Shown piece by piece: positions 7,859 through 28,326 of a stretch of 38,797 nucleotides of DNA. The stretch covers positions 1 through 38,797 of the forward strand of contig CADALT010000020.1 of the NCBI GenBank assembly GCA_902788785.1, read 5' to 3'. Origin of the DNA: an uncultured Ruminococcus sp. (GTDB lineage: Bacteria; Bacillota; Clostridia; Oscillospirales; Ruminococcaceae). How positions within the stretch are numbered: position 1 is the stretch's first letter; every line of letters starts with the position of its first letter. The notes under the pieces were generated by a model. It ran no database searches and had not been told where the DNA came from. It worked only from the letters and a program-made list of their open reading frames with translations. The position numbers were made by a program, and so were the translations under genes.

Positions 7859-7886
7859 GTATGATCTGTCATGGAGGTAGATGATA

Positions 7887-8330
7887 ATGATAAAGATAAT
7901 CGATCTTAGCGAAGTAAGTGAACTCATACCCGATGCCGCACGCTGGTTCTCATATAAATGGGGAATAGATGCAGAGACTTATAAAGAGAGCATGGAGTCA
8001 TCCTGCGAGGATAATGCAGTGCCCAGATGGTATGTGGCACTGATAAACGGCACTATAGCAGGCGGTCTGGGCGTTATCGAGAACGACTTCCATGAGAGAA
8101 AAGACCTTGCGCCCAATGTCTGCGGGCTGTATGTTGAGGAGAAATACCGTGGACGTGGCATAGCAGGCGAACTGCTCGGGTATGTCTGCAAGGATATGAA
8201 AAAACGTGGGATAGATACGCTTTATCTGTCCACAGACCATACAGGCTTCTATGAAAAGTTCGGCTGGGAATTTCTGACAATGGTAAAAAGCAATGACGGC
8301 GAGAGCAGGCTGTATATCAAAAAGAACTAA
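7887..8330 (+). CDS. GNAT family N-acetyltransferase
   Basis: 147 aa from the ATG at 7887, chosen over 7881 because GGAGG (7873-7877) is then 9 nt away instead of 3. Single GNAT domain: a central beta strand then VCGLYVEEKYRGRGIAGELL, with the acetyl-CoA pyrophosphate-binding R/Q-x-x-G-x-G/A motif as YRGRGIA, and a C-terminal GFYEKFGWEFL segment typical of the fold. Cytoplasmic; acetylates an unknown small molecule or protein. It is the first gene of an operon with the GTPase-Rae1 fusion, whose ribosome site overlaps this gene's stop codon region. Whether the two act together is unknown. Confidence 0.88.
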   Translation: MIKIIDLSEVSELIPDAARWFSYKWGIDAETYKESMESSCEDNAVPRWYVALINGTIAGGLGVIENDFHERKDLAPNVCGLYVEEKYRGRGIAGELLGYVCKDMKKRGIDTLYLSTDHTGFYEKFGWEFLTMVKSNDGESRLYIKKN

Positions 8331-8342
8331 GGAATGAGACAG

Positions 8343-10919
8343 ATGAGCAAAAAGGCAGTTATAGGCATACTTGCCCATGTTGACTCGGGCAAGACCACAT
8401 TATCGGAGGCTTTGCTGTATAAAAGCGGTGCGATACGCAAGCTTGGCAGAGTTGACCACAGGGACGCTTTCCTTGATAACAATATCATCGAGCGTGACCG
8501 TGGCATAACCATATTCTCGAAACAGGCGGTGTTCAGCTTCGGCGATGTGGACTTTACCCTTCTCGATACCCCCGGACACGTTGACTTTTCGGGCGAGACA
8601 GAGCGGACTTTGCAGGTCATTGATGCGGCAGTGCTGGTCATCAGCGGTACTGACGGTGTGCAGAGCCATACAAAGACCCTTGCACGTTTGCTGGAAAGGT
8701 ATGATATACCGACCTTCGTATTCGTCAATAAGATGGATATGGCAGGGGCAGACCGCAATTTTGTTATGAACTCCCTTACAGCGTCACTGGGCGACCGCTG
8801 CATATCCATGAAACAGCCTGCGGACGAACTTACCGAGGCGCTCTCGCTTTGCAGTGAGGAAATGATGGAGGAATATCTGGAAGAGGGTAAAATTTCGGAC
8901 ACTTCCATCATCGGTGCCATAGCCGCACGCAAGCTCATACCTTGCTTTTTCGGGTCGGCACTGAAGCTTGAGGGCATAGAGGAATTGCTGGAGGGTCTTG
9001 CGAAGTACGTGCCGCTGCCCGAACAGTCCGAGAAATTCGGCGCAAGAGTATATAAGATATCCGAGGACGGCGGTGCAAGGCTGACACATATGAAGATAAC
9101 AGGCGGCAGTCTTGCAGTCAGGGAAGCCATCACCTACACCGACCGTGAGGGCAATGAGATCACCGAGAAGGTCGGCAGGATAAGGGTGTACAGCGGTGAG
9201 AAGGCTGCGAATACCGAAAAAGCCGTGCAGGGTGAAGTCTGCGCTGTGCCGGGGCTGACAGGGACTTATGCAGGTCAGGGACTTGGATTCGAGCCCGATG
9301 ATGCAGGTCAGCTGACCGAGCCCGTGCTGAGCTACAGGGTAATACCGCCCGAGGGCACAGATGACCATACCATGCTGAAAATACTGCGTATCATGGAGGA
9401 CGAAGACCCCACCATGGCAGTTAATTACAATGAACAGCTTAGCGAGATAACCGTGGCACTGATGGGTGAAGTGCAGGCGGAAGTGGTCTGCCGCATGACC
9501 GAGGAACGTTTCGGTGTCAAGATAACCCTTGGCGAGGGCAGGATAGCCTATCGTGAAACTATCGCCGAACCTGTGGAGGGTGCAGGACATTTTGAACCTC
9601 TGCGCCATTATGCGGAGGTCCACCTGCGTTTAGAACCGCTTGAAAGGGGCAGCGGACTGGAATTTGACAGCGATTGCAGCGAGGATATACTTAGCCGCAA
9701 CTGGCAAAGGCTGATACTGACCCATCTGAAAGAGCGCATACACAGGGGCGTGCTGACCTGTTCGCCCATAACGGATATGCGCATTACACTGACCGCAGGC
9801 AGAGCGCACATAAAGCATACCGAGGGCGGTGACTTCCGTCAGGCGACCTACCGTGCGGTAAGACAGGGACTGCGCAAGGCTAAGAGCGTGCTGTTAGAGC
9901 CTTATTATGCGTTCAGGCTGGAAGTACCTGCGGCTAATACGGGACGAGCCCTCACCGACCTTGACCGCATGGGCGGCAGGACGGACCCTCCCGAGACTGA
10001 CGGCGATACCGCTGTGATAACGGGAACAGCTCCCGTATCTAAACTGCGCTTTTATCACACCGAGGTGGCAGGCTACACAAAGGGGCTTGGCAGACTTAGC
10101 TGTCGGGCGGACGGATATGATATCTGCAAGGACAGCGAAACGGTCATAGCCGAACTGGGCTACGACCCTGACAGTGATACCCGAAATACCGCAGATTCGG
10201 TGTTCTGCTCCCACGGGGCAGGTCATATAATACCATGGGACGAAGCGGACGAGTATATGCACGTCAGCGCTGAAACAGGCAGGCGGCAGTATCAGCAGGC
10301 GGAAGAACTGCGTAATCGTGCGGCAGACTATGTACGCCGTGCAGCGGATGATGAGGAACTGATGGAGATATTCGAGCGTACCTATGGCGCAGTCAACAGG
10401 AAAAAGCGCTATGCCATGCGTACCCCGAAGGAAGTCACGACCCAAAAGGCAAAGCCACGTCCGGTGCCCACAGGTCCCGAGTATATGCTGGTGGACGGCT
10501 ACAATATAATTTTCGCCTGGGACGACCTTAAAAAGGCGGCAGGACAAAGTCTTGACCTGGCAAGAAGCATACTTATCAACCGCCTTGGCAGCTTTCAGGG
10601 GTGCAGAGGCTGCGAGCTGATACTGGTGTTCGATGCCTACAGAGTCAAGGAGCCCGAACATATCGACAAGGCAGGCAGCATCAGCGTGGTATATACCAAA
10701 GAAGCCGAGACTGCCGATACCTACATCGAGCGCACCGCCCATCAGCTTTCAAAAGATCACAGGGTCACTGTGGCGACCTCGGACGGACTGGAGCAGGTGA
10801 TAATCATGGGCTCGGGCGCAAGGCGTATGTCCGCATCAGACCTTAAACACGAGGTAGAAGCTTCAGAGCGTGCAGTCAGGGAGTATATCGAGAAACTGAA
10901 CAGCAGAAGAATGAAGTGA
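8343..10919 (+). CDS. Ribosomal-protection-type translational GTPase fused to a Rae1/YacP-like NYN endoribonuclease
   Basis: 858 aa from the ATG at 8343; this places AAGGA 9 nt upstream, whereas the in-frame ATG at 8334 touches it. Residues 1 to about 640 are a full translational GTPase of the EF-G/Tet(M) class: P-loop AHVDSGKTT, switch I RDRGITIFS, DTPGH, NKMD, GSALK, then domains II-V including a domain IV segment ending TAPVSKLRFYHTEVAGYTKG. After a linker of about 70 residues, residues 713-858 are an NYN/PIN-like nuclease closely resembling Rae1 (YacP), which cuts mRNA in the ribosomal A site: LVDGYNIIFAW, LVFDAYRVK, TKEAETADTYIER and VATSDGLEQ carry the acidic residues. The arrangement suggests a protein that enters the ribosome like EF-G and delivers a nuclease. 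An automatic call of 'tetracycline resistance' would be misleading. Substrate and trigger are unknown. Confidence 0.9.
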   Translation: MSKKAVIGILAHVDSGKTTLSEALLYKSGAIRKLGRVDHRDAFLDNNIIERDRGITIFSKQAVFSFGDVDFTLLDTPGHVDFSGETERTLQVIDAAVLVISGTDGVQSHTKTLARLLERYDIPTFVFVNKMDMAGADRNFVMNSLTASLGDRCISMKQPADELTEALSLCSEEMMEEYLEEGKISDTSIIGAIAARKLIPCFFGSALKLEGIEELLEGLAKYVPLPEQSEKFGARVYKISEDGGARLTHMKITGGSLAVREAITYTDREGNEITEKVGRIRVYSGEKAANTEKAVQGEVCAVPGLTGTYAGQGLGFEPDDAGQLTEPVLSYRVIPPEGTDDHTMLKILRIMEDEDPTMAVNYNEQLSEITVALMGEVQAEVVCRMTEERFGVKITLGEGRIAYRETIAEPVEGAGHFEPLRHYAEVHLRLEPLERGSGLEFDSDCSEDILSRNWQRLILTHLKERIHRGVLTCSPITDMRITLTAGRAHIKHTEGGDFRQATYRAVRQGLRKAKSVLLEPYYAFRLEVPAANTGRALTDLDRMGGRTDPPETDGDTAVITGTAPVSKLRFYHTEVAGYTKGLGRLSCRADGYDICKDSETVIAELGYDPDSDTRNTADSVFCSHGAGHIIPWDEADEYMHVSAETGRRQYQQAEELRNRAADYVRRAADDEELMEIFERTYGAVNRKKRYAMRTPKEVTTQKAKPRPVPTGPEYMLVDGYNIIFAWDDLKKAAGQSLDLARSILINRLGSFQGCRGCELILVFDAYRVKEPEHIDKAGSISVVYTKEAETADTYIERTAHQLSKDHRVTVATSDGLEQVIIMGSGARRMSASDLKHEVEASERAVREYIEKLNSRRMK

Positions 10920-27531: not shown

Positions 27532-28326
27532 TTATCTCCGCCTGAGCTCCCAGAAAGCCACTGCTGCCGCTGCCGCAACGTTCAGCGAGTCCACGCCGTG
27601 TGCCATGGGTATCTTGATGGTGTAGTCGCATTCGCTTATGGTCGCCGCTTTCAGACCGTCGCCCTCGGTGCCGAGAATTATCGCCAGCTTATCTGCCGAG
27701 GATAGTCTTTCATCGTCGATGGTCACCGTATCCGACCTGAGCGCCATTGCCGCCGTGACGAAGCCTTGCTCACGCAGCTTTGCTATATAGCCGCTGTCGG
27801 AAGTGCCGATGTGTGCATAGGGTATCTGAAAGACCGTGCCCATGCTGACCCTGACCGTTCGCCGAAAAAGTGGGTCGCTGCAGCCGTCTGTCAGGAGCAC
27901 CCCATCGAACCCCAGCGCCGCCGCCGAACGGAAAACAGCGCCTATATTCGTCTGGTTCATGACATCTTCCAGCACAGCTATCCTGTGGGCGCAGGACAGT
28001 ATATCTGTCGCTTCAGCCCTGCGTTTCATGGCGCAAAGCATACCCTGTGTCAGCTTGAAGCCCGTAAGCTCCGCAAGCAGAGCCTTGCTGCCGCTGTACA
28101 CGGGTATATCTCCCATGCGTGCGATAATGTCAGCGCCCTGACCTGTGATATACTTATCCTCGCAAAGCAGAGATACCGCCTCGTATCCCGAGTCCAGTGC
28201 GGTGCGTATGACTTTCGGGCTTTCTGCCACGAAAAGTCCCTGTTCTTTCAGCGTAAGTTCCGCCGTTGATGTATAGGGAAAAAGCCCCTCGGCGGAAAGG
28301 TCGGTTATGGGTATTATATCAGCCAT
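27532..28326 (-). CDS. TrmH/SpoU family RNA 2'-O-methyltransferase
   Basis: 264 aa SPOUT methyltransferase. An N-terminal substrate-binding part (LFVAESPKVIRTALDSG) is followed by the knotted SAM-binding domain with motif 1 LEDVMNQTNIGAVFRSAAALGFDGVLL, motif 2 AIILGTEGDGL and motif 3 IPMAHGVDSLNVAAAAAVAFWEL. It probably methylates a ribose in rRNA or tRNA; the exact site cannot be told. Promoter TTGCAT-17-TATAAT just upstream. The M48 protease gene starts 4 bp after its stop, so the two are translationally coupled. Confidence 0.93.
   Translation of the reverse strand: MADIIPITDLSAEGLFPYTSTAELTLKEQGLFVAESPKVIRTALDSGYEAVSLLCEDKYITGQGADIIARMGDIPVYSGSKALLAELTGFKLTQGMLCAMKRRAEATDILSCAHRIAVLEDVMNQTNIGAVFRSAAALGFDGVLLTDGCSDPLFRRTVRVSMGTVFQIPYAHIGTSDSGYIAKLREQGFVTAAMALRSDTVTIDDERLSSADKLAIILGTEGDGLKAATISECDYTIKIPMAHGVDSLNVAAAAAVAFWELRRR

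Follow-up and report, generated by a model that had tools for sequence, protein, structure and literature searches.

Introduction

Domain IV of EF-G-type GTPases enters the A site of the 30S subunit, and the nuclease Rae1 of Bacillus subtilis has been modelled in the same A site. RelE-type toxins and Rae1 are described as cutting mRNA in the ribosome (in the part of PMC12320835 consulted), and Rae1 is characterized as an A-site mRNA nuclease (PMC12320835 and PMC6613710, likewise in part), with S1025 as one of its targets (PMC10632193). Rae1, also called YacP, is a single-domain protein of 170 aa encoded between rlmB and sigH, whereas the tetracycline-protection proteins Tet(M) and Tet(O) are EF-G-like, five-domain GTPases with a short C-terminal extension. 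To our knowledge, no nuclease that cuts mRNA in the ribosome, be it a RelE-type toxin or Rae1, is brought there by a GTPase.

A YacP-like NYN domain was reported in Tet proteins of ten Clostridiales species, and a role in antibiotic resistance or as an rRNA RNase was suggested for it in a single paragraph of the text consulted (Atkinson, 2015; PMC4342817). That text calls the proteins Tet and raises resistance or rRNA cleavage, but replacement of Rae1 is not mentioned in it. No further paper was recognized as treating the fusion among those listed in the literature searches; Condon (2018), on Rae1 distribution by its title, may mention fusions. Here, we describe a gene from a 38,797-nucleotide stretch of DNA of an uncultured Ruminococcus sp. 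(the window) that fits the earlier proteins in architecture, an EF2-family GTPase joined to an NYN domain, and in bacterial group (Clostridia). The fusion is real and widespread and its architecture was already known, while its function is uncharacterized in the literature as far as searched; new here, to the same extent, are three findings: the fusion stands in for Rae1 almost one for one, a motif in the Rae1 tail has been lost from it, and it fails a test for Tet identity. We think it reasonably likely that, in part of the Clostridia, the separate enzyme has given way to this fusion, a Rae1 that is brought to ribosomes by the GTPase to which it is joined.

Results and Discussion

The gene is a single intact frame of 858 aa, stop-free on translation. 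An alternative start at 8334 is permitted by the ORF finder, and an AAGGA at the end of the upstream gene suits the ATG at 8343. Its features are as follows:

8343..10919, + strand: whole fusion gene, 858 aa; stop-free frame, start at 8343 with AAGGA upstream
8343..9014, + strand: GTPase (G) domain, residues 1-224; Pfam GTP_EFTU at 6-224, 169 bits
9015..9533, + strand: domains II and III, residues 225-397; Pfam, and EF-G fold in the AlphaFold2 model
9537..9884, + strand: domain IV, residues 399-514; Pfam EFG_IV at 399-514
9888..10133, + strand: domain V, residues 516-597; Pfam EFG_C at 516-597
10134..10262, + strand: C-terminal extension, residues 598-640, with the motif DSVFCSHGAG...W; common to unfused relatives
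10275..10478, + strand: linker, residues 645-712, of low confidence and little conserved; AlphaFold2 pLDDT and alignment
10479..10916, + strand: NYN_YacP/Rae1 domain, residues 713-858, with D718, D764, D792, and D814; Pfam, structure match, and alignments

EFG_III (residues 325-397) scored above the Pfam cut-off, and domain II, for which the Pfam match was weak (EF-G_D2, 19 bits, below the cut-off of 27), is present in an AlphaFold2 model built from 22 aligned sequences (mean pLDDT 84.9), in which both halves are well folded. The nuclease half matched NYN_YacP (PF05991) at residues 715-855 with 154.9 bits, well over the cut-off of 24.6, and matched the B. subtilis YacP structures 5mq8 and 5mq9 (E about 8e-27). 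With the intact frame, these results bear out the first-pass annotation, which had read an EF-G-type GTPase and a Rae1-type nuclease within one protein. The halves are joined by a tether of ~65 residues; the stretch 641-710 is of low confidence (pLDDT 34-62 per ten-residue block), and residues 656-712 contain no invariant position among 30 aligned rows. A sequencing join or a frameshift between the halves, a possibility that the same annotation had raised, was ruled out, since intact fusions occur in many families and, in each of the 29 long-frame loci retrieved from elsewhere in the class, one ORF encodes both parts. Frame-broken copies occur in three other genomes (L017, L081, and L082).

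The GTPase half has the G motifs and domains I-V of the EF-G-type superfamily. G1, G3, and G4 are present and conserved (P-loop AHVDSGKTT, DTPGH including the histidine, and NKMD), with D75-H79, N129, K130, and D132 invariant across 29 fused proteins, and a Foldseek search led from this half to structures of EF-G (lowest E 1e-53, ~25% identity). Although fold and G motifs are held in common with EF-G, identity to it is about 25-31%, the cut-offs of the EF-G equivalog models are not reached (TIGR00484, 308 of 659 bits; NF009381, 345 of 583), and the domain IV loops and C-terminal extension differ; two further EF-G-like genes are present in the window's genome. In a comparison of domain IV loops, in which the L127 row is the wrong ORF, the fusion showed a GHFEPLRHYAE-like loop and AHIKHTEGGDFR as loop III, different from both Tet(M)/Tet(O) and EF-G. 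Domain IV is also the best conserved region of the fused GTPase (mean 0.79 vs. 0.675 for the G domain, 30 fused rows), whereas EF-G has the reverse pattern (0.66 for domain IV vs. 0.72 for the G domain, 51 rows). In the extension, S619, F621, G625, and W632 are invariant in 29 fused proteins, and the Tet(M), Tet(O), and EF-G rows of the comparison showed no DSVFCSHGAG motif. This motif and the W that follows it (window 10194-10223, residues 618-627) are conserved in fused and unfused members alike.

Bifidobacterium, Collinsella, and some Bacillota have unfused GTPases whose loops are identical to these or resemble them. Three of them, from Bifidobacterium and Collinsella (L108, L111, and L112), have the same loop III and an SVFCAHGAG extension with no NYN domain, and close variants of loop III and the extension occur in Neobacillus and Intestinibacter. 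Given such unfused forms, the GTPase is also of use by itself, and from the sequences we read it as a subfamily of its own, found with and without the Rae1 domain. In a first tree, three unfused actinobacterial GTPases fell inside the fused group, and monophyly of the fused rows was rejected by an AU test (p 0.003) for this set, which held L109, counted as unfused though its contig ends within the gene. With a reduced set that left out L109, L116, L120, L103, L084, and L128 (L103 and L084 having short N-terminal ends), the tree holding the fused rows together was better than the free tree (p 0.678); the fusion may, therefore, still have a single origin, and the actinobacterial GTPases may either have lost the NYN domain or be an older form.

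The unfused lineages also bear on an alternative in which the protein performs two successive jobs: the NYN domain would cut mRNA, the EF-G-like part would then move or split the ribosome, and fusion would only keep both in step. Independent use of the GTPase, to which these lineages point, would suit such an arrangement, as would the long, flexible linker of the AlphaFold2 model and the activities of EF-G in translocation and as an aid to recycling (PMC4342817, in the part consulted). Considering that the domain IV loops are unlike those of EF-G and that the GTPase scores below the EF-G model cut-offs, we regard this alternative as unlikely, albeit one to be taken seriously.

The first-pass annotation had also called the GTPase EF-G/Tet(M)-type, and the Tet(M) part of that label found no support. 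The top NCBIfam profile, tet_protect, gave 426 bits against a cut-off of 775, and none of the five tetracycline-protection models found among the best 25 of 42 rows scored the fusion as high as its cut-off, while a Tet(M) used as positive control passed (1485 bits against 1420 and 880 against 775). The fusion shares 28% identity with a Tet(M) and 31% with an EF-G; the range is 28-29% for Tet(M) and Tet(O), which also differ from the fusion in having no NYN domain. A Tet-type loop III was not found in the fusion, where the loop reads AHIKHTEGGDFR vs. YYSPVSTPADFR in the Tet(M) comparison; the role of the domain IV loops is taken from PMC4342817, as far as consulted. Among plasmid records matching at E<=1e-20, 2 of 1050 cover 80% of the fusion protein. 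A mobile resistance gene was ruled out as the main reading by the scores, the loops, and this plasmid coverage.

The suggestion of Atkinson (2015), by which a Tet-type protein clears a drug from the A site and the nuclease acts on RNA, would give antibiotic protection with the help of an RNase. It agrees with the classing of clostridial members as Tet (PMC4342817, in the part consulted), with the rank of tet_protect as top profile, and with an Agathobacter rectalis record that has a matching NYN domain and is named as TetM/TetW/TetO/TetS family. It does not agree with the sub-threshold scores beside a passing control, the low identity to Tet(M), the differing loop III, or the scarcity of plasmid records covering the protein, and it leaves the replacement of Rae1 unexplained. 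We, thus, consider it improbable.

Over 146 aa, the NYN domain of the fusion shares 41% identity with B. subtilis Rae1, and it keeps D7, D53, D81, D104, and Q108 of that enzyme. The four acidic residues are retained in 68/68 fused and 31/31 stand-alone rows, so the loss of active-site residues against which the first-pass annotation had cautioned is not observed. D7 and D81 of Rae1 have reportedly been tested as catalytic. Rae1 differs from the fused domain at its C-terminus, where it has a basic motif (R165, R/K166) that is absent from the window's fusion. R165 is present in 31/31 stand-alone rows vs. 2/68 fused rows (2/20 among fused rows with any letter at that position), and R/K166 in 30/31 vs. 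8/68. All 31 stand-alone rows run to the end of the 169-position profile, which was built from them, vs. 45/68 fused rows that end at or before position 150 and 15/68 that reach 159 or more. Those 31 rows are mostly best-scoring matches, which could favor complete domains; among lower-scoring matches, Pfam position 159 (of 166) or beyond is reached by 46/48 stand-alone rows (the exceptions being G266 and G429) vs. 10/52 fused rows. In those fused proteins that are long enough to cover the tail, the aligned rows mostly lack the arginine. The 68 fused rows, in which the window is represented by its duplicate L001, over-represent the window's genus, and R165 is present in 2/44 when L001-L025 are left out. 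In B. subtilis, the R166P substitution acts as a loss-of-function allele of Rae1 (PMC6613710, in the part consulted). We infer that the tail of Rae1 serves something now supplied by the GTPase, ribosome contact being the simplest candidate.

To follow the two forms across the class, we used a sample of 393 genomes, for which a completeness of 90 or more was requested. NYN_YacP matched in 250 of them and in 249 the match was usable: 128 genomes have a fused form only, 112 a stand-alone form only, 1 has both, and 8 are unclear, counts that are not independent of phylogeny and in which any frame of at least 700 aa is taken as "fused" (a GTPase was confirmed in 29/29 such loci fetched, the other calls being based on frame length). 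The unclear genomes comprise four in which the frame runs off the contig end by arithmetic (G228, G212, G351, and G241), two that are frame-broken (G103 and G246), one with an NYN gene and no GTPase (G342), and G291. Left out of the count were fragments in two pieces (G426), second matches below the cut-off (G177, G230, and G264), and 27 aa at a contig end (G317). Fusion and stand-alone gene are, thus, nearly always mutually exclusive. Families with a match show the same division, with fused forms in 25/54 and stand-alone forms only in 28/54; both kinds occur in five families (f42, f43, f47, f48, and f67), in none of which does a single genome have both. The sole genome with both (G340, family f71) has, besides its fusion, an NYN copy flanked by rlmB and sigH (L078 and L079).

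The window's own genome (90.6% complete) has one PF05991 match, the fusion itself. The absence of stand-alone rae1 beside the fusion, put forward for checking in the first-pass annotation, is seen there and, with the one exception of G340, in the class sample. Among 61 genomes (its own and 60 relatives), NYN_YacP was found in 25, and the same 25 have the GTPase at E<=1e-100; the NYN frame exceeds 700 aa in 21 of these and is cut or broken in 4. One relative (G056) has the GTPase only (41% identity, 636 aa) with no NYN match. Most of the named carriers come from metagenome assemblies. In a scan of genome contigs that covered 80 loci out of at least 593 candidates, they were Lachnospiraceae, Oscillospiraceae (Lawsonibacter), a MAG of the Clostridiaceae, an Erysipelotrichaceae MAG (L116, 33% identity), and the isolate AC2029. 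A further carrier is Monoglobus pectinilyticus (54% identity over 99% of the query), in which the product is named "translation factor GTPase family protein."

The remaining 143/393 genomes of the class have no NYN_YacP match, so the function is dispensable; on this ground, and because Rae1, the nearest characterized relative, is an mRNA nuclease, we find it very improbable that the fusion is an rRNA- or tRNA-processing enzyme brought to ribosomes by its GTPase, even though a part for the NYN domain in the maturation of rRNA and tRNA has been proposed (Anantharaman and Aravind, 2006, cited in PMC4342817, consulted in part).

Genomic context separates the two forms as well: Rae1 lies between rlmB and sigH, while the fused domain is part of a GTPase gene at another place in the genome. 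The naming of genes is based on annotated records of C. difficile and B. subtilis, where the order is cysS, mini-RNase III, rlmB, NYN/rae1, and sigH, with thyX in addition in C. difficile. Among nine loci without GTPase, eight adjoin rlmB and/or sigH (rlmB directly before NYN in 7/9, sigH directly after in 7/9), vs. 0/30 fused loci, the window included. The exception, L093, is a stand-alone NYN gene with neither neighbor; the 18 other sampled matches of its family (f48) are fused. The nine include a 330-aa NYN_YacP gene that follows rlmB and has no GTPase (G342; L083:6669-7661). In 5/8 fused genomes with rlmB located, sigH lies about 90-590 bases further on and no NYN ORF intervenes, which fits loss of the old gene from the operon after the fusion arose; in the other 3/8, the window's genome included, sigH is not next to rlmB. 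A partial match to an RlmB methyltransferase model, below the cut-off, lies within a 270-aa frame at window 27538-27981 on the minus strand. A conserved operon partner of the fusion was sought and rejected, as the 30 fused loci have no common neighbor. In the window, a GNAT acetyltransferase gene (7881-8330) overlaps the fusion's ribosome-binding site with its end, and this gene was not found within about 1.5-2 kb upstream in 12 relatives.

If the fusion is indeed a Rae1 delivered by its own GTPase, the EF-G-like part, through GTP and its specialized domain IV, would select and bind ribosomes whose A site is empty or blocked. Rae1 docked in that site would probably compete with domain IV, which makes a sequential mechanism likelier than joint entry; the picture of A-site entry coupled to cleavage in the first-pass annotation, thus, needs an order of events. 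In its GTP-bound state, the protein could first recognize and clear the A site, domain IV would then leave or move, and the flexibly tethered NYN domain would cut its presumed substrate, the mRNA, at or near the A site. Such cleavage would allow decay of the mRNA and rescue of the ribosome, and in this way the fusion would have come to do the work of the separate Rae1 in some Clostridia. More tentatively, and with somewhat less confidence than in delivery itself, we propose that the protein could be a bacterial answer, within one protein, to no-go decay: a dedicated translational GTPase that is neither EF-G nor Tet might spot the free or jammed A site and hand the tethered Rae1 to the mRNA, having replaced a ribosome-engaging part of Rae1, with the C-terminal motif decaying after fusion.

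If true, a nuclease carried by a GTPase would mean that ribosomes are selected for cutting in another manner, and in common bacteria of the gut and rumen. The replacement pattern opens a direct genetic test. At least one public record labels a relative as a tetracycline resistance protein; the tests above argue against that label for the window's protein, and mislabelling would matter for counts of resistance genes in microbiome data.

Two plasmid records, L179 (C. difficile; 1 of 12 C. difficile plasmid records was inspected) and L209 (B. subtilis), contain the rlmB-NYN-sigH region beside ribosomal and translation genes and are probably mislabelled pieces of chromosome. Unannotated faecal contigs recorded as "Bacteriophage sp." (L180 and match H52), which may be host or phage DNA, also have NYN domains, 50-53% identical to that of the window.
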